From assembly GCA_028864875.1 (NCBI GenBank), contig JAGWLV010000004.1, positions 1 to 38,277 of the forward strand: a stretch of DNA of 38,277 nucleotides, written 5' to 3'. Numbering within the stretch: position 1 is the stretch's first letter; the number at the start of each line of letters is the position of its first letter. This document shows positions 390-38,277 of the stretch, piece by piece. Source of the DNA: Patescibacteria group bacterium (GTDB taxonomy: Bacteria; Patescibacteriota; Minisyncoccia; Phycocordibacterales; SBAW01). Position numbers and translations under genes: made by a program. A model generated the notes under the pieces. It was not told the DNA's origin, made no database searches, and saw only the letters and a program-made list of their open reading frames with translations.

Positions 390-1343
390 CTATTTTTTAG
401 ATTTGGGTTTTTTGTCTGACTTTTTGGGAGATGCGTCCGCTTTGGGCGGCGTGCGGATGAGCTCGACCGCCTTGCCGATGAGCGGCACGATGTCTTCGTA
501 GAAATTGAGCTCTACGGCATCGTCGAGCTTAAACCACTTGGCGTCATCGAGCCCGCCGCTTTGCTTCAACACGACCGGCGTGTGCGGAGACTGTGCAAGA
601 AAGTACGTCACGTGCTTGCGCTTCTTGCCCGTCTTCGGATCGGAGGCGACGTACTCGTTTTCGCCGAGCTTGTGCTCGAGCACTATGTTGAGCCTCATTT
701 CCTCTTGTATCTCGCGCACGGTCGCTTCCTCGAGCGTCTCGCCCTTTATCTTGTCGCCCACCCTGCCCTTGGAGAGCGTCCAGTGGCCGAAGATGTCATG
801 CACGAGCGCGAGGTACACTTCCCCGCGATGGCGGCTGTACACCACCGCGCCGCCGAGGCGCTCGACGGGCATTTCCGCATAGGGCACTTCTTTGCGCTTG
901 CGGCCGATTTCGTCCTTGCCCGGCTCACCGAGCTCTTTGTACACGGCGCCGAGGACACCGTTGACGAAGCGGCCGGAATTTTCGCCGCCATAACTTTTGG
1001 CCAACTCTATCGCCTCGTTGATGGCGACTTTGGCGGGCACGGCGCCGCGGTCGGCGAACAGCAATTCAAAGAGGCCGAGCCGCAGCACATTGCGGTCAAC
1101 GGGCGCGATGCGGGCAATAGGCCACTCCGGCGCCGCCTTTTCTATAATCAGGTCGAGATCCTCGCGTCGCTCGATTGCGCCGCGCAAAAGGCCTTCCATA
1201 AACGGAAGGTCGGCGGCACCGGAGGCGAACTCACGCACATTGCGCAGGAGTGCTGCATGCGCGCCCTCTGCGCCCAAGTTACGTGAGTCCCACTCGAAGA
1301 GTGTTTGGAGGACTACTGAGCGTGAAAGGTGCCGATTGGCCAT
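390..1343 (-). CDS. nusB: NusB antitermination domain fused to a C-terminal NUDIX hydrolase domain
   Basis: N-terminal ~140 aa is NusB-like (SRSVVLQTLFEWD..., PVDRNVLRLGLFELL, VAINEAIELAKSYGGENSGRFVNGVLGAVYKEL). C-terminal half carries a near-complete Nudix box (GDKIKGETLEEATVREIQEEMRL; consensus Gly replaced by Arg). Single ORF. Confidence 0.9.
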   Translation of the reverse strand: MANRHLSRSVVLQTLFEWDSRNLGAEGAHAALLRNVREFASGAADLPFMEGLLRGAIERREDLDLIIEKAAPEWPIARIAPVDRNVLRLGLFELLFADRGAVPAKVAINEAIELAKSYGGENSGRFVNGVLGAVYKELGEPGKDEIGRKRKEVPYAEMPVERLGGAVVYSRHRGEVYLALVHDIFGHWTLSKGRVGDKIKGETLEEATVREIQEEMRLNIVLEHKLGENEYVASDPKTGKKRKHVTYFLAQSPHTPVVLKQSGGLDDAKWFKLDDAVELNFYEDIVPLIGKAVELIRTPPKADASPKKSDKKPKSKK

Positions 1344-15353: not shown

Positions 15354-17573
15354 TTAGCGTATCTCGAAGCCTTTTTGTTTGAGTGCCGCGGATACTTTTT
15401 CCATAACCGCGTTGACCTCGGCCTCGGTGAGCGTGCGCTCGAAGGATTGAAAGACAACGTGGTAGGCCACACTCACCCGTCCGGCTTTTTCGAACCGGTC
15501 AAATTGCGAGATTGTTTGCGCCCACTCCCCCGCTAGCGTTTGTATGTCCCTCGCTACGGCCGCCTCGTCGGTACCTGCGGGCACCCACATCGCAATGTCG
15601 CGGACGATGTACGGGAATTTTGAAAACGGTTTGTACTGCACGCCCTCCGGAGTCCGATATGATATATCATAACGCTCGCCCGCTACCGGTTTAAGTTCAT
15701 GCTCTTCTATTTTCCCTCCCTCGACAGCCGTGCCGAGCACCGTGCGCTCCCCTCCCCCTTTCCACACAGCGCCGACTTCAAAAAGCTTTATTTCTTTGAG
15801 CCCGAGGAGTTCTTTGGTGCGGACGTTGCGCCCGAGCGCCTCGACAAGTCCGGGTACAAGGCTCGTGCGCAGGTACGGGCGTTCGCCGCCCACTTTGTTG
15901 AGCACCTCGACCTCGCCCGCGTCGGCAAAGACCGCTGTATAAATTTCGCTGTAGCCTTGTGTAATAAGTTGTGCGCGAGCTTGCTGTGCCGCGGCGAACA
16001 TGGGGTTGATGGCCGGCGGTTGCGAAGCGGATGGCAGCGGCGTGCCTGGAATCTTTTCGTACCCCACCATACGCGCGACTTCCTCTATCAAATCTTCGGT
16101 TATACGCAGATCGAGCCTTTCAAACGGAATATCAATCACAAAGTGCGGAGTCTGCGCCTCCCACACACGCCGCCAACCCACGATAGTTTTAAAACTCGAG
16201 CTGTTTTTTATATCTTCAATAACTACACCTGACTTCGCTTTGGTGGCATGTATCACCTTCCCTCCGCCGAGATAGAGGCCCACATGGTCGACGCCCTGCG
16301 GCACCTTCGTGCCGCGCAAGTACTGCACGCTCTCGTAACGGATTTTACCTACGTCCGAGTTTGAAAAGACTAAATCCCCCGGCTGCGCGTCTTTCTCTTC
16401 TATCGGTTGTCCCCATACAAACTGATCGACCGATAGACTCGGCATCGCAATCCCCGCCTGCACGTAGAGGTAGTTGGTGAGTGATGAACAGGAAAATGTT
16501 TTAGGCGCGTCGGTGCGGATGCCGCTGTCATATTTATATGTTGCCCCGACCAAAGACGGTGCCGCCTCGACAACGTGCTGTGCCGGACTTTTGACTTGTT
16601 TGTACGCCCATCCGAAGCGCTTAAACACATCTTCTACATCGGCATCGCTCAAGGTGAGACCGAGTACGGAATTTATTTGCTGCGTTGAAACACCGACTTT
16701 GTACACCCAGTCGCTGCGCCCCGGGTATTTGTCGACAAAGCCCTCGAGAGTGCCGCCCGCGATTGAAAGAATGACATTGACCGCCTGTTGCATCGCATAG
16801 CCGCAGAGCTCCGGCGAAAGTTCCTGCTCGAAGCGCGTCGAGGCATCGGTGCGCAACTTGAGCGCCTGGGCCGCCTTGCGCACTACTGCGCCCGCAAAGT
16901 TCGCCGACTCGAGTACGATATCGGTCGTCGATTCGTCTATGGCCGCGGGCAAGCCACCCTTGACCCCCGCAATGCCGATGGGGGCGTCCCCTGCGGTGAT
17001 GACGAGCATGCTCGGTGAGAGTGTGTAGGACTTTTGGTCGAGCGCGACCATCGCCTCGCCTTGATGCGCGAGGCGCACGCCGAGCGCAAGCGAGCCGAGC
17101 TTTTTTGCATCAAACGCATGCATCGGCTGGCCGAGGTTGAACATAACCAGGTTCGTCGCATCAACAACGTTGTTTATGGGCCGCTGGCCTATAGCCTCCA
17201 GGCTCGCTTTAAGCCAGTCGGGGCTCGGGCCCACTTTGACCCCTTTGATGTACCCCGCGATGTAGCGACGGCAGAGCTCGGAGTCTGCAATTGCAACACT
17301 CACCCCTGTTGCCTGTTTTGAAAAATCTATTTTGTAGTTGAACGGGTCGTTTTCTTTATTCAGCGGCAATTGCAAAATCGCCGAGAGCTCTTTGGCTATG
17401 CCGCGGTGGCCGAGGCAATCGTGTCCGCGGTTGGGCGTCACTTTAATATCTATCACCTCGCCCTCGACCCCCTCGACTTCAAACGCGTGCTCGTTTATAG
17501 CGCGCGCGGTAGCCTCCACGCCGGGAAGCTTCCCATTCAAATAATTATTGAGCCACGGGTAATAGACTTTCAT
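15354..17573 (-). CDS. pheT: Phenylalanyl-tRNA synthetase beta subunit with inserted NlpC/P60 domain and no EMAP/OB tRNA-binding domain
   Basis: GEVIDIKVTPNRGHDCLGHRGIAKELSAI (B1), B3/B4 (QRPINNVVDATNLVMFNLGQPMHAFDAKK), split B5 (VSTQQINSVLGLTLSDADVEDVFKRFGW ... DIPFERLDLRITEDLIEEVARMVGYEKIP), catalytic-like region, FDX-ACB C-terminus. Start ATG at 17573. Confidence 0.93.
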   Translation of the reverse strand: MKVYYPWLNNYLNGKLPGVEATARAINEHAFEVEGVEGEVIDIKVTPNRGHDCLGHRGIAKELSAILQLPLNKENDPFNYKIDFSKQATGVSVAIADSELCRRYIAGYIKGVKVGPSPDWLKASLEAIGQRPINNVVDATNLVMFNLGQPMHAFDAKKLGSLALGVRLAHQGEAMVALDQKSYTLSPSMLVITAGDAPIGIAGVKGGLPAAIDESTTDIVLESANFAGAVVRKAAQALKLRTDASTRFEQELSPELCGYAMQQAVNVILSIAGGTLEGFVDKYPGRSDWVYKVGVSTQQINSVLGLTLSDADVEDVFKRFGWAYKQVKSPAQHVVEAAPSLVGATYKYDSGIRTDAPKTFSCSSLTNYLYVQAGIAMPSLSVDQFVWGQPIEEKDAQPGDLVFSNSDVGKIRYESVQYLRGTKVPQGVDHVGLYLGGGKVIHATKAKSGVVIEDIKNSSSFKTIVGWRRVWEAQTPHFVIDIPFERLDLRITEDLIEEVARMVGYEKIPGTPLPSASQPPAINPMFAAAQQARAQLITQGYSEIYTAVFADAGEVEVLNKVGGERPYLRTSLVPGLVEALGRNVRTKELLGLKEIKLFEVGAVWKGGGERTVLGTAVEGGKIEEHELKPVAGERYDISYRTPEGVQYKPFSKFPYIVRDIAMWVPAGTDEAAVARDIQTLAGEWAQTISQFDRFEKAGRVSVAYHVVFQSFERTLTEAEVNAVMEKVSAALKQKGFEIR
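16152..16589 (-). other. NlpC/P60 cysteine-peptidase domain nested inside pheT
   Basis: APSLVGATYKYDSG...TFSCSSLTNYLYVQAGIAMPSLSVDQFVWGQPIEEKDAQPGDLVFSNSD...GVDHVGLYLGGGKVIHATKAKSGVVIEDI. Cys362 (16488-16490), His430, His442 fit the Cys/His/polar triad. Confidence 0.9.
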
Positions 17574-17575
17574 TA

Positions 17576-18331
17576 CTAGAATTGATGTATGAAGCGCAGG
17601 TCGCCGCTGTGCATGAGGCGCACGTCGTCGATGCCCCACTTGAGCATCGCGAGCCGGTCGAGACCCATGCCGAAAGCCCACCCCCGGAAGCGCTGTGGGT
17701 CAACGCCGGAGTTGTTGAGCACGTTCGGGTGCACCATGCCCGCACCCATGATTTCGATCCACTTGTTGCGGAGCTTCTCCGGTGTGTTGTCTCCCGTGAG
17801 CCGCATGCTGACCTCAAGCCCCGGCTCGACAAAGGGGAAGTACGACGGGCGGAACTCAATTTCGACCGAGCCCTTAAAGAGCCGCTCAAAAAATTGCGTG
17901 AGCGTCCACTTGAGGTGCGCAAGCGTGATGTCCTCGCCCACCGCCAAGCCTTCGAGTTGATAGAACTCGGCCTCATGAGTCATGTCGGTCGCCTCGTTGC
18001 GGAACACTTTGCCCGCACAAATCATCCGGTAGGGCGGCGGGACGCCTTCCTTAATCTTCCCCTCCATGTAGCGGATCTGGGCGTTGCTCGTGTGCGTGCG
18101 CAATACGCCCTGGGTACCCTTGAGATAAAACGTGTCCTGCATGTCGCGCGCGGGGTGCTCTGCGGGGACGTTGAGTGCGTCGAAGTTGTACCACTCGGTC
18201 TCCAAAAGCGGCCCCTCGCCGAACTCGAACCCCAGGTCATAAAAAATAGCGTTGGCCTGTGCGATGAGCTGCGAGACGGGGTGGAGGTGGCCCGCGGGGG
18301 CACTTTGGCCTTCATTTAACGCACTTTTCAT
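17576..18331 (-). CDS. pheS: Phenylalanyl-tRNA synthetase alpha subunit (lacks N-terminal coiled coil)
   Basis: GHLHPVSQLIAQANAIFYDLGFEFGEGPLLETEWYNFDALNVPAEHPARDMQDTFYL, FEPLE-like SYFPFVEPGLEVS, GAGMVHPNVL, GWAFGMGLDRLAML. Confidence 0.95.
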   Translation of the reverse strand: MKSALNEGQSAPAGHLHPVSQLIAQANAIFYDLGFEFGEGPLLETEWYNFDALNVPAEHPARDMQDTFYLKGTQGVLRTHTSNAQIRYMEGKIKEGVPPPYRMICAGKVFRNEATDMTHEAEFYQLEGLAVGEDITLAHLKWTLTQFFERLFKGSVEIEFRPSYFPFVEPGLEVSMRLTGDNTPEKLRNKWIEIMGAGMVHPNVLNNSGVDPQRFRGWAFGMGLDRLAMLKWGIDDVRLMHSGDLRFIHQF

Positions 18332-29956: not shown

Positions 29957-30946
29957 CTACGTGATTTTACGTGCCAGGGCGGCCCGGACTTTGTTGGCGA
30001 TGTGCGGAGCCGTGAGTCCATAATACTCCAATAATTCTGCAGGCTCGCCCGACTGTCCGAAGCGGTCATCGACTCCCACAAATTCAACCGGCACGGGGCT
30101 TAGCTCCGCGAGGAGCTCTGCCACGGCGCCGCCGAGACCCCCCGCGCGCTGGTGCTCTTCGACGACAACCACGGCCCCCGCCGCGCGCGCAACGTCCGCG
30201 AGCGCCCTATCAAGCGGCTTAATAGTGTGGACGTTGTATACGACCGCGGGCACCTCGTGTCCGATGTCGCGCGCGGCGCGCAGTGCCTCGTACACCAAGG
30301 GGCCCGTCGCAAAGATGGCGACTTGTGCCTGGTGCTCGCTCTCCCACATGAGCTCGGCTCTGCCGACCGTAAACGACGACTCGTGCGTGGTTATGGTGGG
30401 TGTCGCCGCGCGAGCGAGGCGCAAGTACACCGGGCCGTTGATGCCCGCACACGCGACGGTTGCCTTGCGCGCCTCCTCCGCGTCGCAGGGCGAGATAACG
30501 GTCATATTCGGCTGCACGCGCATGAGGGCCATGTCTTCGAGCGCCTGGTGAGTCGCACCGTCGGGGCCGACGGAGAGCCCCGCGTGGGACCCGACGATTT
30601 TGACCGGCACATTGTTGAGCGAAATGGTCGTGCGTATCTGCTCGTTGTTGCGCCCGGGGCTAAAGGTCGCGTAGGACGCGATGAACGGAATCTTGCCGTA
30701 GTTGGCGAGCCCGCTGCCCACGGTTGCCAAATTTTGCTCCGCAACCCCCACTTCGACAAAACGCGCAGGGTACTTTTTTGCAAATGCCTCCATGCGTGTC
30801 GACTCGGTCAAGTCGGCGCACAACGCCACCACGCGCGGATTGCTATCGCCAAGTTCAAGCAACCCCTGGCCGAATCCGTCGCGCGTCGGTTTTAGTTCCG
30901 GCTTCTCAAACAAATCTTCTCGCAGTTTCGCATTATGATATATCAT
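29957..30946 (-). CDS. Transketolase, C-terminal subunit
   Basis: KPTRDGFGQGLLELGDSNPRVVALCADLTESTRMEAFAKKYPARFVEVGVAEQNLATVGSGLA, HAGLSVGPDGATHQALEDMALMR. Confidence 0.93.
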   Translation of the reverse strand: MIYHNAKLREDLFEKPELKPTRDGFGQGLLELGDSNPRVVALCADLTESTRMEAFAKKYPARFVEVGVAEQNLATVGSGLANYGKIPFIASYATFSPGRNNEQIRTTISLNNVPVKIVGSHAGLSVGPDGATHQALEDMALMRVQPNMTVISPCDAEEARKATVACAGINGPVYLRLARAATPTITTHESSFTVGRAELMWESEHQAQVAIFATGPLVYEALRAARDIGHEVPAVVYNVHTIKPLDRALADVARAAGAVVVVEEHQRAGGLGGAVAELLAELSPVPVEFVGVDDRFGQSGEPAELLEYYGLTAPHIANKVRAALARKIT

Positions 30947-30952
30947 AATTTT

Positions 30953-31807
30953 TTATTGGTGCTCAGACTCGATGGTGCCGCTCATGGTGCGCAGTTCGTT
31001 GAGGAATTTTTTGCCTTCCTCCTTTGTGGGCGGCTTGCCATGCCAGCGGTAGTCGAACTCTATTTCTTTGATGCCCTTGCCGGGTATCGTGTGTGCGATG
31101 ATAAGGGTCGGCTTTTCATAAATTGCCTTGGCCTGCTCCACCGCGCTGATGACCGCGGCAATATTGTGGCCGTCGACCTCGAGCACGTGCCAATTAAAGG
31201 CCTCGTACTTGCGGCGCAGGTCTTCAAGCGGCATCACATCCTCGGTGTGGCCGTCTATTTGGATGTTGTTGCGGTCCATGATGGCAGTGAGGTTGTTGAG
31301 TTTATATGTGCCCGCAAACATCGCCCCCTCCCACACGTTGCCCGCGTCCTGCTCGCCGTCGCTCATGATGCAGTACACGCGGAAGGTGCGCTCGTCCATG
31401 CGCGCACCGAGCGCGTAGCCGACGGCTTGTGAGAGCCCGCTGCCCAAGGGACCGCTCGTCGTTTCAAGCCCGGGGAGGCGCAGACGCTCGGGGTGCCCCT
31501 GCAGACGGGAGCCGAACTTGCGCAGCGTGAGACACTCTTCGAGAGGAAAGTACCCTGCGTGCGCCATTGCTGCGTAGCGCACGGGGACGATGTGACCGTT
31601 GCTCAACATAAGCCTGTCCCGTTCGGCCCACTCCGAGTTGTGCGGGTCGTGATTGAGGATGTGGAAGTAGAGCGCGGCAAAGATGTCGGCCATGCCCAAG
31701 GGGCCCGCGGTGTGGCCCGAGCCTGCGGCAGTTAGCATTTCAACAATAGTCTTGCGGATGCCGAGCGCCTTCCCTTCTATATCTTTTATTTTTTGCTCAG
31801 AAATCAT
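30953..31807 (-). CDS. Transketolase, N-terminal subunit
   Basis: SGHTAGPLGMADIFAALYFHIL, SNGHIVPVRYAAMAHAGYF, GPLGSGLSQAVGYALGARMD, SDGEQDAGNVWEGAMFAGTYKLNNLTAIMDRNNIQIDG. Confidence 0.94.
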   Translation of the reverse strand: MISEQKIKDIEGKALGIRKTIVEMLTAAGSGHTAGPLGMADIFAALYFHILNHDPHNSEWAERDRLMLSNGHIVPVRYAAMAHAGYFPLEECLTLRKFGSRLQGHPERLRLPGLETTSGPLGSGLSQAVGYALGARMDERTFRVYCIMSDGEQDAGNVWEGAMFAGTYKLNNLTAIMDRNNIQIDGHTEDVMPLEDLRRKYEAFNWHVLEVDGHNIAAVISAVEQAKAIYEKPTLIIAHTIPGKGIKEIEFDYRWHGKPPTKEEGKKFLNELRTMSGTIESEHQ

Positions 31808-31817
31808 GACTCGATAC

Positions 31818-32513
31818 TTATGGGCGGTTTGCTTCTTTTGAAAGGTCCACATACGCGGCGGCGATATCGTCCGCCTCCCACAGCGCGTGGCCGACAATGA
31901 GACGTGACGCGCCCACGGCGGCGAGGGCGTGCGCGTTTTCCATAGTAACCGCACCGTCCACCTGGAGAGGCAAAAGCGGGTAGCGCCGCCGCAGGCGCTC
32001 GAGCAGGTAGAGCGCGTGGCGGTCGAAGGGCTCGCCCTGGCGACCTTCGCGGTCTATACCCATCACTTGTACGAAGTCAAACTGGGCCTCAAGAGGTTCG
32101 AGCATGTCGGGTTGTTCTTGAGGTCCGAGCGCAACCCCCACCTGGATGGTGAAGGCGCCCGATTCCTCGCGCATGTCGACAAGTTGACCGACCGCTTGCA
32201 GGGCGCTCGGGGAGCGCGCGTGTATGACGATGCGCGATGCACCTGCGCGCGCGAAGCTCTGCGCATCAGCGCCCGGGTCCTCAATCATGAGGTCGAACTC
32301 GTAGTCTATTTCGTCCCACAGCGGGAGGCCGCCCCCTGCATCGACCGCCGACTCAAACCCGGTGCGGTCCTTGTAGGGCCACGTTTTGCCGCGCACGTAG
32401 CGGCCGTCGACAATGTCGACCTGCACACGCCGTGCGACCGCGCGGATGCGCTCGAGACGCTTCTTGAGGTCGTCAAAGGACGTGGGTAGGATTGCGGGAA
32501 TGATTTCTACCAT
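31818..32513 (-). CDS. rpe: Ribulose-phosphate 3-epimerase-like protein
   Basis: MVEIIPAILPTSFDDLKKRLERI, VQVDIVDGRYV, FDLMIEDP, FVQVMGIDREGRQGEPFD, LQVDGAVTMENAHALAAVGASRLIVGHALWE. Confidence 0.8.
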   Translation of the reverse strand: MVEIIPAILPTSFDDLKKRLERIRAVARRVQVDIVDGRYVRGKTWPYKDRTGFESAVDAGGGLPLWDEIDYEFDLMIEDPGADAQSFARAGASRIVIHARSPSALQAVGQLVDMREESGAFTIQVGVALGPQEQPDMLEPLEAQFDFVQVMGIDREGRQGEPFDRHALYLLERLRRRYPLLPLQVDGAVTMENAHALAAVGASRLIVGHALWEADDIAAAYVDLSKEANRP

Positions 32514-32526
32514 CCTGCCTTCTATT

Positions 32527-32964
32527 CTATCCCAACTCCCCGATGCGTCTTCGGTGGCGCGCGTCGCCTGAAAAGGGCTCCCGCAGCCACGCAAGAGCGG
32601 CCTGTTGTGCTTCTTCCGGCGAAATGAGCCGCGCGCCGAGCGCCAGAATGTTTGCGTCATTGTGACGGCGGGATAAGAGCAGCGCATCGTGGCCGCCGCC
32701 ATAAAATTCCGCAGCGCGCGCGCCCCTGACACGATTGGCCGCCATAGCTTCGCCCTGCCCCGAGCCGCCTATTGCAATTCCCCTGCTCCCCTTTTCACTC
32801 GCCACAGCTTGTGCGAGCGGCTCGATGGTGAGCGGGTAGTCGTCGCCCGGCTGCAACTTGTGCGGGCCGAGGTCTTCCACCTCGAATCCCTGCCCTTCTA
32901 AAAATGTTGCGAGCGCTCCTTTGAGCTCAAACCCCGCGTGGTCGGATGCCAAGTAGACTTTCAC
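32527..32964 (-). CDS. rpiB: RpiB-type ribose-5-phosphate isomerase / LacAB family
   Basis: MKVYLASDHAGFELKGALATFLEGQGFEVEDLGPH, GIAIGGSGQGEAMAANRVRGARAAEFYGG, RHNDANILALGARLIS. Confidence 0.92.
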   Translation of the reverse strand: MKVYLASDHAGFELKGALATFLEGQGFEVEDLGPHKLQPGDDYPLTIEPLAQAVASEKGSRGIAIGGSGQGEAMAANRVRGARAAEFYGGGHDALLLSRRHNDANILALGARLISPEEAQQAALAWLREPFSGDARHRRRIGELG

Positions 32965-32968
32965 CCCT

Positions 32969-33985
32969 CTATTTAATCATGGTCCCTGCGGCTTTGACAT
33001 GCCGCAGAAGCGTGTGGGTATACCCCATTTCGTTGTCGTACCAGGCCAAGACTTTGACCAGATTGCCTCCCACAACCCGGGTCATGGGGAGGTCGACTAT
33101 CGAACCTTCGGGGCGACCGATTATGTCTGAAGAAACAAGCGGCTCGTCGGAAACTGCAAGTATTCCCTGCCAGCGCGGTGTCATGGCGGCGTCACTCAAA
33201 ATTTTATTTACCTCTTCTACGTTGGTGTCTCGTTTGGTCACGAATGTAAGGTCTACGTACGAGCCCGCAATGACTGGCACGCGCACTGCCATACCATCGA
33301 AAAATGGGATGCCTTGTACCGCTTTGGTCAGTGCAGTGGCGGCACCTGTTGATGACGGGACAATGTTGTGCGACCCCGCGCGTCCACGACGCTTGTCGCT
33401 GCCGCGGACTGCCGAGTCAACGGTGGATTGTGTTGCGGTGAGTGCATGCACGGTGTCGAGCAAGGCCTTCTCTATATCAAGCGCCTCTTCAAGCACTGCG
33501 ACGACCGGGCTCGCGGCGTTGGTGGTGCAACTGGCATTGGAAGTTATAGAACAGGTGGCCAACTTTTCTTCATTGACACCCATAAGCACGGTGGCCGCGT
33601 TGAGCATATCATCTTTGACTGGTGCAGAGATCACCACGCGCTTGGCGCCTGCGGCGATGTGCACGCTCGCCTTTTCAAAACTGTCGAACACGCCTGTCGA
33701 CTCGACCACAACATCTATAGCGAGGCGCTTCCATGGCAGCGTGGCGGGCTCCTTCTCCTGCAAAAATTCTATCCGCTTGGCGCCGACCATGAGCCCGCCT
33801 TGCATTGCGCTCACCTGTCCGGGGAATGCGCCATACACACTGTCGTGGCGCAACAAGTACGCGAGATTTTCTATATCACCGAGGTCGTTGATAGCAACGA
33901 TGTCGACGCCCGGGTCGTATGCAGCCGCGCGCAACAAGCAACGCCCGATGCGCCCGAACCCGTTGATAGCGACGCGTACCGCCAT
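32969..33985 (-). CDS. gap: Glyceraldehyde-3-phosphate dehydrogenase
   Basis: VRVAINGFGRIGRCLLRAA, SNASCTTNAASPVV, RRGRAGSHNIVPSSTGAATAL, WYDNEMGYTHTLLRHV. Confidence 0.95.
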   Translation of the reverse strand: MAVRVAINGFGRIGRCLLRAAAYDPGVDIVAINDLGDIENLAYLLRHDSVYGAFPGQVSAMQGGLMVGAKRIEFLQEKEPATLPWKRLAIDVVVESTGVFDSFEKASVHIAAGAKRVVISAPVKDDMLNAATVLMGVNEEKLATCSITSNASCTTNAASPVVAVLEEALDIEKALLDTVHALTATQSTVDSAVRGSDKRRGRAGSHNIVPSSTGAATALTKAVQGIPFFDGMAVRVPVIAGSYVDLTFVTKRDTNVEEVNKILSDAAMTPRWQGILAVSDEPLVSSDIIGRPEGSIVDLPMTRVVGGNLVKVLAWYDNEMGYTHTLLRHVKAAGTMIK

Positions 33986-33988
33986 AGG

Positions 33989-34531
33989 TTAAAAGACAAC
34001 GGGCAAAATCAATTTCTGGTTTCCACCCGCTTTGATAATAACGAGTGCTCCCTGCGTGCCCGGTTGTTGAGCCGCAAATGTCAGTGTCACCTTAAACGCC
34101 AGCATCCCCGCCGGGGCGGCTGCAGCTGTTTCTTGGGCTTGGGCGGCGGCTATCGTCGCGCCGGTGCCGGCAAGCAACTCGACTGTCATCTCCCCGCCGC
34201 TGTACCAGTCTTTTTGAGCGGCACCGCTCACGGTCACCGGCGAGCTGTCGAGTACCGGCGCGGGCGGCAAATCGACGCGCACCTGCCCATCCACCGATGA
34301 GGCGTTGCCGGTGTATTCCACAAACGTCTTACCCCACGGTACTTTGCAGGTTTTCGGGAGGCCCACCTTGACCGGATAGAGTGTCGCGCACTCTTGAAAA
34401 TTCGTCGGCACCGGGCCAGGCTTGGGCGCGGATAGGTAGAGCCACCATGCCGCACCACCAAGTAGTGCCACAAGTATGAGTGCGAGCATCACTTTTACTA
34501 CCGGGTAAGAAAATATCGATGAGAATGACAT
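33989..34531 (-). CDS. Membrane-anchored protein with Gmad2-like immunoglobulin-type domain
   Basis: N-terminal TM; PVLDSSPVTVSGAAQKDWYSGGEMTVELL...FKVTLTFAAQQPGTQGALVIIKAG resembles Gmad2. Confidence 0.65.
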   Translation of the reverse strand: MSFSSIFSYPVVKVMLALILVALLGGAAWWLYLSAPKPGPVPTNFQECATLYPVKVGLPKTCKVPWGKTFVEYTGNASSVDGQVRVDLPPAPVLDSSPVTVSGAAQKDWYSGGEMTVELLAGTGATIAAAQAQETAAAAPAGMLAFKVTLTFAAQQPGTQGALVIIKAGGNQKLILPVVF

Positions 34532-34542
34532 GTGCCTTTTTA

Positions 34543-37500
34543 TTATATCTCTTTAAAGTTGGGAACGAGTCCCAGGTTGACCGACGCGCTCGTCGTCGCG
34601 GTGCCGTCGCCGCAGGAAAGAGTGTATGTGGTCGGTCCGAAGATAAGCCCTGTCGGCGCCGAACCGTACCAAGGGTTGAGCCCGTTCCATGCGGGCATCC
34701 CGAACGTCAGCCCCGGAGTGGTGTTGCACGAGATGCCCGGCACCATCCCCACAATAGTCCAGAAGAGCTTCGACGCTTGTCCGGAGCTCACACGAGAGGG
34801 CGAAGCCGTAAGGATAATGCTCGAGGGCTTGGTGCCCGCGGGAGTGGAACCGATGACGATGGACCCGGAGCCGGCCGGGCAGGAGAGTTGGTATGTCCCC
34901 GCACCTACGCTCACCGAACCTGCCGCCGCTCCGTCGGTACTGAAGTTGACGCCGCTGGTCGGCCCGGACGGACAGCACCACGATACCGTCGCCTGGGTGC
35001 CGGGCGTGACCGATGACGCACTCGTATAGAGCGCGCACTGGCTGGAGCACGAGACAGGCGCCGTGCCGACACCTGTTTGGCATGACTGACTCGTGGTGAC
35101 CGAAGCGGTCGTCGACTGCGGACTGCCGTTTACCATGCATGAGAGCGTATAGGTGGTATTGCCAGCTCCAGTTATAGGCTGAGTCTGAGACGGCGCACTC
35201 TGCGGCACATTGTTGGTAGAGGCGGGAGCGACGATGCTGCTGTCTGGAGCCGTGACATTGCAGGAATTGGCGACAGCACCGGTTGCAGACCAGTAGAGAG
35301 AAGCGCGGTCACCACTCTTCACAAAGGCCGGAGTCACGCCGGAGGAACAGGAGGTATTGGCCGCGTTGCATGCAGTCAAAGAGAGTACCGCACCGGTGAC
35401 AGTCACGGTTGCCTGGGTGCTTACCGGCACACCCTCGGCCGCAGTGTTACAGGTGAGCGTGTAGGTAGTCGTGTTGTATAGAGGTCCGACCAAGATATTG
35501 GGGGGGCCTTGGTTGAAATCGGTGTTCGAGACGCTTGAGAAGTTGAGATGAAACCCGTCCGTGCCGACGGGGCCGGAATACGTTCCGGGCTTCCAGAAGC
35601 CGTTGCCATCGTATGCGCCGAAGCTTGCGGGTGCCAATTGCTGACCGTCTATCCAATAAACATCCGCAAGGTAACCATCAAAAGGAGACGTCGCGCCGTC
35701 GTATGTACTTATATAGTGAGGTCCGATTGCATCGAGCCCGAGTGACGCGTTTTGTGCCGGGTTGTTGAGTGTGGCGAAGGAGGTGATTTCCGAGCCGTCG
35801 ACATATACGCGGATGCGGTTGTTGGCTGCACTGTCCGGCTGAGTGGTATCTACCGCAACAACAATATGGTACCAGTGGCTCGGATCGCGAAAGATTTGGT
35901 TGGTGATGCGCCAACTGGAATTCCATCCTAAAATGCGCAATTGATCACCCGGAGAAAAGCTGACCGAGAAGAAGCCTGAGTCGGTTTGCGCAGAATTCGC
36001 CGCGTAGAGGTATTGGTAGGTGCCAAGTTGTCCGCGCTTGACCCACATTGAAAGCGTCGCGGTCGTGTTGCTACCCAGCGCGCCAAATGAGCGGCTTAGA
36101 TAGGGTGTTTGACTTCCGTCGAAGTGCATCGAATACGGAATAGTAAGCGCCGCAGGTGTCGAGGCGGACTTGAACGGTATGCCGGCAAAGGCAATGTAAG
36201 CGTATGTGTCGGTACTGTTGTTGTTTTCATAATTGTGGCTGCGCATCTTAAAGCCATTGGCGAACAAGTCGACGCTGCAATTGCTGTTATTGGTGCAACT
36301 GGCGTCGCCGTTTTCGGCCACACCGAGGTTGGCAAAGAGCCCGCGGTATGCGGGATTTTGGGTATCACGCGAAGTGTCGTATATGGTCCAGTTGGTGTAG
36401 GTATTAGAGCTGGAAATATCTTTTACCATCACAAACGCCGGCTTAAAACCAGTATAGACAAAAGGCCCGTCAGAGGCGCCGTTGGCGATATAGGTGCCTG
36501 CTTTTGAAAATCCTTCGCGGTTGGAGAAGAGATACGAAACGTACTGTGCGCCCGTGGTATTGAGAGGTCCTTGTGTCGTGACCGTCGAGTTTGAAACACT
36601 AAACAGCGAGCCGCTCAATGCTGCGTCAGTCGTGTTGAGCTTAAGGAATGAATTTGTACCAAGTGCCGAGAACCAGGTATACCAGTCGCCTGTCTGGTCG
36701 ATTCGCTTGTTGACAATGAAGTCCGGTTTGGTCGTGAGTGTATGCGCATAGCCGCTACTCGTACTTGGTGTGTATTTGATGACAATGACGCCCTGCGCGC
36801 CCGGACCGCCGGAGGAGGTGCCTCCGGCGTTGTCATAGCCAGAACCACCACCGCCGCCGCCATAGCCGCCGCCGGTGCCACCTGTCCCGGCACAACCAGA
36901 ACTTTGGCAACTCCCGCCGCCGCCCGCGCCGCCGCCGGAGCCATGAGTCGCATCCCATTCGGTGCCGGCGGCGCCTGTGGTGCCGGCAAACCCAGGATTG
37001 CCACCTGCGCCGCCTGCGCCGCCTGCGCCACCGCCATTTGCACCGGCGCCGCCGGCAAGACCGCTCGAGCCGCTCACCCAATCCGTGCCCTGCGACCCGC
37101 CATCGGCGCCGCCGCCGCCGGGAGCTCCGGAGGTTGCCCCCTGGTTACTTCCATTTCCCCCACGGGCACCGTTGCTAGTTGGGCCGGCCGCGCCGCCGCC
37201 GCCGCCACCACGGGTGCTGCCTCCATTGCCCCCTGAAGTCTTGATGCTGCCTATGCCGCTTGCGGATACACCGCCGGTGCCACCACCGCCGCCGTCTTGG
37301 TTGCTAACGCCCCCGGCACCGCCCTGGGCGCCTACGATGACCGCCGTGCCGGCCAGCGAGGCACAGTTGCTGGTCGAGTTGCATAGATAGGTGTCTCCGC
37401 CCGCGGAGGCGGGACTGCCGCCCGCGCCTATCGCCACGGTGACGGTCGAACCGGGAGTGAGAATCACGTTGGCCTGCTTCGAATACGCGCCGCCGCCGCC

Positions 37501-38277
37501 GCCAGAGCCGCCGCCGGCGACGTTTCCATTCCCACCCCCGCCACCTCCACCAATGACCTCGATACTGTTGTTGAAAGAGTTCCAATCGGAGGGCACAATC
37601 CACGCAGTGGCGGACGTCGAGGTAAGATAGATAGTCACCGGAGTGCCGCTGGTCGAGCCCCCTGTATACGATTCAACATCTATACCGGCGGCAGCCGACT
37701 TTTTCCACGCCCAAGCAGCGTATGAGTTCCCTGCCGCATTGACATCACCGGTAGGTGCCGCACACGAGCCGCCAACGGTAAAGCCATTGCTGCTGAATGC
37801 GGTCACCGAGCCGTTGTTGTCATTTTGTACCTGTGCGCCGCTCGTGTTGGAAAAGAGGTTGAAATTAGGCCCGCGCGCCGAGTCATCAACCGTGTTGTTG
37901 TAGGCGGCCCCGCGGTTTTTTATCCATACCAGGTCAGGTTGAAAATTGAGCACAATATTTTGAAGGGAGTTGTTGCCGGTGTAGGGTTGGGCGTCAAAGT
38001 AGCGATTGGGCAGGGTGATGCCGGGAGTTGCCGCGTTGGCGGTTGAGAGCGCCAGGTAGCCGCTCGGCGGCGCATACTTGTAGGAACCGCCCGACGTGCC
38101 GTTGTACGCCACGCCCGCAACACCTCCCTGTCCAAAGTTGACATACGTCTTGCCGTAGTAACTCGCGAGGCCCGGCGTGCCACCCTGCACGATGCCGATA
38201 TAGCCGGTACCGAGGGCGGGGTTGCCGCTGTTTTGCCAGGTGCCGTTTTTGGCAACGTACACCTTGCCCGAGTCGGC
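34543..38277 (-). CDS. Giant modular surface protein (N-terminus beyond the window): SPRY/DUF7483-like phage-tail modules, Gly-rich domain, LamG-like, Ig-like repeats
   Basis: Open to the window edge. PPSGYLALSTANAATPGITLPNRYFDAQPYTGN + FQPDLVWIKNRGAAYNNTVDDSARG...AFSSNGFTVGG...YAAWAWK; long Gly-rich tract; MHFDGSQTPYLSRSF...YHIVVAVDTTQ...RVYVDGSEI...LADVYWIDGQQLAPASFGAYDGNGFWKPGTYSGPVGTDGFHLNFS; repeated TYTLSC Ig-like segments. Confidence 0.88.
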   Translation of the reverse strand, partial: ADSGKVYVAKNGTWQNSGNPALGTGYIGIVQGGTPGLASYYGKTYVNFGQGGVAGVAYNGTSGGSYKYAPPSGYLALSTANAATPGITLPNRYFDAQPYTGNNSLQNIVLNFQPDLVWIKNRGAAYNNTVDDSARGPNFNLFSNTSGAQVQNDNNGSVTAFSSNGFTVGGSCAAPTGDVNAAGNSYAAWAWKKSAAAGIDVESYTGGSTSGTPVTIYLTSTSATAWIVPSDWNSFNNSIEVIGGGGGGGNGNVAGGGSGGGGGAYSKQANVILTPGSTVTVAIGAGGSPASAGGDTYLCNSTSNCASLAGTAVIVGAQGGAGGVSNQDGGGGGTGGVSASGIGSIKTSGGNGGSTRGGGGGGAAGPTSNGARGGNGSNQGATSGAPGGGGADGGSQGTDWVSGSSGLAGGAGANGGGAGGAGGAGGNPGFAGTTGAAGTEWDATHGSGGGAGGGGSCQSSGCAGTGGTGGGYGGGGGGSGYDNAGGTSSGGPGAQGVIVIKYTPSTSSGYAHTLTTKPDFIVNKRIDQTGDWYTWFSALGTNSFLKLNTTDAALSGSLFSVSNSTVTTQGPLNTTGAQYVSYLFSNREGFSKAGTYIANGASDGPFVYTGFKPAFVMVKDISSSNTYTNWTIYDTSRDTQNPAYRGLFANLGVAENGDASCTNNSNCSVDLFANGFKMRSHNYENNNSTDTYAYIAFAGIPFKSASTPAALTIPYSMHFDGSQTPYLSRSFGALGSNTTATLSMWVKRGQLGTYQYLYAANSAQTDSGFFSVSFSPGDQLRILGWNSSWRITNQIFRDPSHWYHIVVAVDTTQPDSAANNRIRVYVDGSEITSFATLNNPAQNASLGLDAIGPHYISTYDGATSPFDGYLADVYWIDGQQLAPASFGAYDGNGFWKPGTYSGPVGTDGFHLNFSSVSNTDFNQGPPNILVGPLYNTTTYTLTCNTAAEGVPVSTQATVTVTGAVLSLTACNAANTSCSSGVTPAFVKSGDRASLYWSATGAVANSCNVTAPDSSIVAPASTNNVPQSAPSQTQPITGAGNTTYTLSCMVNGSPQSTTASVTTSQSCQTGVGTAPVSCSSQCALYTSASSVTPGTQATVSWCCPSGPTSGVNFSTDGAAAGSVSVGAGTYQLSCPAGSGSIVIGSTPAGTKPSSIILTASPSRVSSGQASKLFWTIVGMVPGISCNTTPGLTFGMPAWNGLNPWYGSAPTGLIFGPTTYTLSCGDGTATTSASVNLGLVPNFKEI

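Follow-up and report, generated by a model that had tools for sequence, protein, structure and literature searches.

A putative membrane-anchored surface protein with phage-type modules encoded near gap in an Adlerbacteria-type Patescibacterium

One end of the contig studied here carries what we judge, with a probability of about two in three, to be the 3′ portion of a chromosomal gene encoding a surface lectin or adhesin of very large size, anchored in the membrane and bearing swappable outer modules, in an Adlerbacteria-type Patescibacterium. The gene occupies positions 34543–38277 (minus strand) of the window, the whole stretch of DNA analysed, which is an entire contig (C19; 38,277 bases) of a genome assembly of 588,602 bases in 57 contigs that is 92.7% complete. 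It contains 1,244 codons without a stop and is open through the contig's last base; each of the five alternative frames across the same positions has 18–61 stops. Position 38277 is a true contig end lying inside the gene, and the missing 5′ part was not found on any other contig of the assembly. The full-length protein would begin with a short cytoplasmic segment and a single membrane-spanning helix, followed by an Ig-like domain, one or two cassettes, and further Ig-like domains at the C terminus. The helix would both direct export and hold the chain in the membrane, the Ig-like parts would form a stalk for outward display, and the lectin-fold modules would attach to glycans of other cells or of other surfaces, making the protein an adhesin. 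The cassette—SPRY-DUF7483-LamG, homologous to LamG-SPRY-DUF7483 proteins encoded among Caudoviricetes tail genes—would sit within a resident family of surface proteins with a membrane helix and Ig-like domains (TM-Ig), whose middle parts vary between relatives; its acquisition from phages is a less certain step.

The visible part of the protein reads, from N to C terminus, as the end of a SPRY domain, DUF7483 repeat 1, a Gly-rich domain, DUF7483 repeats 2 and 3, LamG, and an Ig-like, Cys-containing region, all on the minus strand. The SPRY end (residues 1–95; 37993–38277) is recognized by its match to the homologue in relative G030: residues 1–52 are 50% identical to residues 590–642 of the full G030 protein, whose SPRY domain is a Pfam match. 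The SPRY profile gives no score in the window protein itself because the contig end cuts the domain. DUF7483 (PF24299) is matched with an E-value of 8e-68 and 229 bits, above its curated cut-off of 27 bits, in two stretches (37681–38010 and 36175–36795) corresponding to profile positions 2–110 and 126–330. Repeat 1 is at 37642–37992 (repeat model E=6e-23) and repeats 2 and 3 are at 36157–36786 (model E=2.6e-64), separated by the Gly-rich domain at 36757–37641 (Gly_rich_2, PF21722; 25.2 bits against a Pfam cut-off of 24.3). LamG, a concanavalin A-like lectin domain, is at 35539–36147 (residues 711–913; homology model E=2.5e-82) and is also assigned from the predicted fold of the homologue in relative G035. 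The remaining region, 34543–35538, ends in LVPNFKEI and is kept in relatives with and without DUF7483. The protein matches PHROG 19943, 'virion structural protein' (E=1.7e-125), PHROG 24898, 'tail fiber protein' (E=3e-39), and PHROG 27411.

Most of this layout had been read from the letters alone in a first-pass annotation, whose SPRY-like tail, DUF7483, Gly-rich tract and LamG are all borne out by these searches, as is its expectation of phage-module matches, which are strong both in PHROG and among viral predicted structures. Its Ig-like C terminus holds at moderate confidence. Its 'second related segment' at 36160–36760 is indeed DUF7483-related, but is repeats 2 and 3 of one DUF7483 and not a second copy; the domain appears as two segments because the Gly-rich insertion splits repeat 1 from the others.

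DUF7483 is a three-repeat, all-beta domain. A model of its first ~100 residues gives three successive matches in most of the intact domains examined, from phages and Patescibacteria alike, and repeat-versus-repeat scores against shuffles have z-values of 5.5–9.2 within G035 and 2.0–7.2 within phage MEP301. In G030 and G031 it is repeat 2 that is broken up by added domains (F5/8C; Gly-rich). The DUF7483-LamG part of G035 is uninterrupted, and its AlphaFold2 model, built from 67 rows, has a mean pLDDT of 90.7 and a pTM of 0.65 and is almost all beta. Foldseek searches of the PDB match its LamG part to pentraxins (target TM about 0.5–0.6), laminin-G pairs and neurexin, and this prediction (pLDDT 91) supports a LamG fold; no clear match of DUF7483 to a solved structure was seen among the best 50 listed. 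Viral predicted structures align with the G035 model over ~300 columns at 1.6–1.7 Å and 32% identity, and one such match, from an uncultured Caudovirales phage, is itself named DUF7483. For the last 340 residues of the window protein the model is weaker (pLDDT 64.6), though it improves across roughly the final 180, and Foldseek matches it mostly to tandem Ig proteins, including the E. coli adhesin FdeC; an Ig-like tail is thus weakly supported by structure prediction. Taken from these models, the protein would carry extracellular domains of adhesive type, namely LamG (homology model and predicted fold) and, with moderate confidence, Ig-like ends. A literature search of partial coverage found no description of DUF7483 and nothing linking Patescibacteria to adhesins of LamG or tail fibre type, both weak negatives.

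Membrane anchoring, which the first-pass annotation had proposed to look for, was found in relatives. The intact homologues of G031 and G030 (1,883 and 3,597 aa) each carry a single membrane helix near the N terminus, with Ig-like domains at the two ends of the protein, and one strongly hydrophobic stretch lies near residues 15–45 in these two proteins and in a Kaiserbacteria homologue (CP066682). The helix of the window protein is inferred from these relatives because its own N terminus is absent from the assembly. Lipoprotein anchoring was considered and rejected: the Cys before the helix in G030, G031 and G020 has Leu or Phe at −1, and no lipobox was recognized by eye. Nor does the VPxxxEI ending appear to mark proteins for C-terminal sorting throughout the genome: searched as a pattern in the window's own genome, it matched the surface gene only, and so looks like a feature of the family and not a general sorting tag.

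Three DUF7483-free relatives in the same genus bear on how the protein was assembled: G016 (968 aa) and G012 (694 aa), which share with the window family the locus upstream of gap, and G020 (1,124 aa), which lies beside recA. All three have an N-terminal membrane helix with flanks similar to those of the window family and an Ig-like C terminus ending VPxxxEI, but they differ in having no SPRY-DUF7483-LamG in the middle. Calx-beta and LCCL domains are found there in G016, Kelch and a Gly-rich part in G020, and no domain was assigned in G012. From these shared ends enclosing other adhesive modules, we infer that a phage-type cassette was probably built into a pre-existing TM-Ig surface protein and then expanded. 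The cassette is tandemly duplicated in G030, G035 and the Kaiserbacteria protein, and it has gained a Gly-rich domain in the window and F5/8C and Gly-rich domains in relatives.

What such a protein does is the point on which a competing explanation retains most weight. It could be surface-exposed without being an adhesin, namely as a protein of the cell coat or matrix or one that captures glycans, serving nutrient scavenging or acting as a shield or decoy against phages; we regard this as a real, if minority, possibility. LamG, F5/8C, Gly-rich and Ig modules are general ones, and variable middles would equally fit evasion of phages or predators. The module set, however, matches that of phage proteins encoded among tail genes, for which receptor contact is the usual role, and domain searches of the window and relatives found no hydrolase or transporter domain that would support feeding. 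An adhesin is therefore our preferred reading, in which the protein may help the cell to stick to other cells.

Relatives of the cassette were identified in at least 576 viral contigs in a scan of IMG/VR and in 63 of 50,697 phage records, with hosts including Pelagibacter, Synechococcus, Roseobacter and Vibrio; in the phage records examined the gene's neighbours encode tail or internal virion proteins. At a threshold of E≤1e-5, DUF7483 is present in 5 of the 41 family genomes, 8 of 297 sampled within the order (many of these order-wide matches being weak, diverged repeats that we leave out of the functional argument), and 8 of 380 drawn evenly from the phylum. With only 5 of 41 family genomes carrying it, it is no core attachment factor.

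The trees, which are unrooted, intersperse Patescibacteria rows with viral ones. A clade with support of 99/97 unites the window with the two G030 copies, which suggests that the cassette, once acquired, was passed on vertically in this lineage; in the LamG tree G035 nests within a viral clade (98/92). The latter placement suggested independent phage captures, a claim that we dropped given that a single Patescibacteria origin, tested with DUF7483, is compatible with the tree data (p-AU 0.248). A phage source of the cassette is the likelier reading. The opposite direction, with LamG-SPRY-DUF7483 being a bacterial surface cassette picked up by phages for their fibres, seems improbable to us; the unrooted tree, the p-AU value for a single origin, and copies scattered in other bacterial MAGs speak for it, but the viral contigs far outnumber the matches in evenly drawn Patescibacteria, the bacterial rows occur here and there in a mostly viral tree, and at least one of the bacterial loci, L048, proves to be a phage contig. 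A recurring gene set was also seen in distant Patescibacteria (L220:7676–11784, minus strand; L050:7662–13348, plus strand), consisting of a TM protein, a ~100-aa 'FLKWSLIGGGGFLLGKIFGP' protein, a ~120-aa protein ending AAGLNMS, and a LamG-SPRY-DUF7483 protein in the phage order and without a membrane helix.

The chromosomal setting is conserved. A small gene (33989–34531, minus strand) for a membrane-anchored protein with a weak match to Gmad2, below the Pfam cut-off, lies 11 bp from the surface gene in the same direction and separates it from gap, as in G030; the first-pass annotation thus had the neighbourhood right in placing the surface gene next to a gap operon, but not the immediate neighbour. 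Translations identify gap itself (glyceraldehyde-3-phosphate dehydrogenase; 32969–33985, minus strand), which starts a syntenic block, and the rpiB-like, rpe-like and split transketolase genes that follow (29957–32964, minus strand). Orthologues of gap are present in 31 of the 41 family genomes, and the gap-rpiB-rpe-transketolase order is identical in G030, G031, G035 and G040. Three of these relatives (G030, G031 and G035), a Ca. Adlerbacteria MAG and two 'Nomurabacteria' MAGs, have a homologue of the surface gene beside the block: that of G030 is separated from gap by the same small gene, that of G031 is 22 bp from gap, and that of G035 (1,417 aa, 5′-cut) is 3.1 kb away. The complete Kaiserbacteria chromosome has a two-unit homologue about 4.6 kb upstream of gap. 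A promoter and terminator scan for shared regulation with gap gave matches at chance level.

Despite its homology to PHROG 19943, the gene is surrounded by chromosomal genes, in the window as in relatives, and not by a phage or prophage morphogenesis cluster. No capsid, portal, terminase or integrase was recognized in translations of the window or of the relatives' flanks, the first three in agreement with the first-pass annotation, and searches with ten proteins flanking the gene in G031 brought up no phage structural family and one match to guanylate kinase. That annotation had also allowed for an undetected prophage edge, and one could suppose that the gene marks the border of a prophage or phage-derived island that continues past the end of the contig, since the contig stops within the gene and the best family matches are phage families. 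This is very unlikely, being largely refuted by synteny: in three relatives the homologues adjoin the same gap block, the intact ones lying among ordinary chromosomal genes, and, unlike the phage proteins, they have a membrane helix and Ig ends. Of the domesticated phage-type adhesin proposed at first pass, what finds support is a chromosomal, non-prophage surface protein with phage-type modules, from synteny with the gap block and from the PHROG and viral structure matches. Least credible is an assembly chimera misjoining phage sequence to an Adlerbacteria contig, for which a repetitive Gly-rich gene at a contig end might speak, but which is rejected given the identical join in three separately assembled relatives and is at odds with a gene GC of 57–60% that equals that of the remaining contig. 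A plasmid origin was likewise discarded, there being no plasmid match.

A co-directional ORF of at least 650 aa lies within 6 kb upstream of gap in 17 of the ~28 family genomes with a usable stretch, a mechanical list in which surface-protein status is not implied for every ORF and in which many contigs end at this place. Nine of the 17 have repeated GIGT motifs with the look of a tail shaft. Very large ORFs with such motifs, resembling a phage tail shaft, lie upstream of gap in G003, G005, G007, G010, G014, G027, G029, G032 and G038 (loci L194–L217), at the position that the surface gene takes in the window, and their contigs often end there. A conserved membrane-anchored 'FLKYNNAVP...DNTYIxxKD' protein is also encoded near gap in many relatives (L035:16405–17583, L037:5590–6783, L039:5260–6318 and L047:16609–17718), and its G031 version has a Bact_surface_Ig-like domain.

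Two other genes of the window have unusual architectures. The phenylalanyl-tRNA synthetase beta chain gene (15354–17681, minus strand), a single open frame, contains an NlpC/P60 insert (E=4e-14) at about 16152–16559, between the B3/4 and B5 domains. The one further match in the family is weak, to a separate 186-aa frame in G002, and as far as the sequences reveal the insert appears private to this genome. A NusB-NUDIX fusion is encoded in one frame at 390–1343 (minus strand).

How Patescibacteria recognize and hold partner cells is described as largely unknown (PMC12206443), and in Saccharibacteria surface proteins that are predicted adhesins are among the genes reported important (PMC11665869). 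By analogy with cultivated Patescibacteria (PMC12206443), the organism is probably host-dependent. The surface protein offers a concrete candidate, with an anchor, phage-type recognition modules and a variable middle, at a locus that can be compared between strains. More speculatively, and with the odds against it, the site directly upstream of gap could be a host-recognition locus, in which a conserved scaffold (membrane helix, Ig stalk and VPxxxEI ending) or a conserved genome place receives swapped recognition cassettes, phage tail-fibre ones included; if so, host choice would evolve through the same modular exchange that alters phage host range.

Among the closest counterparts, the Kaiserbacteria CP066682 protein (1,952 aa) resembles the window family in having one membrane helix and a position upstream of gap. 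Its two LamG-SPRY-DUF7483 units, however, retain the phage module order, no Ig C terminus was seen, and a transposase-like gene, a signal peptidase and other genes lie between it and gap. The phage LamG-SPRY-DUF7483 virion or tail fibre proteins (PHROG 19943, 24898), exemplified by those of Roseobacter phage CRP-811, Methylophilales phage MEP301 and Caudoviricetes MW202481, are homologous to the Patescibacteria proteins in all three modules, at ~33–38% identity, and their DUF7483 has the same three internal repeats. A single domain order common to phages and CPR, suggested by joins of BLAST matches, was rejected: the phage proteins are ~790 aa long with the order LamG-SPRY-DUF7483, are surrounded by tail genes, and are without the Ig ends, the Gly-rich insertion and the membrane helix, the last being absent from all seven phage proteins checked. 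The cassette of a phage fibre would serve, by virtue of its anchor, as a part of the cell surface, and the surface protein is related to phage fibre proteins yet distinct from them by position and anchor.
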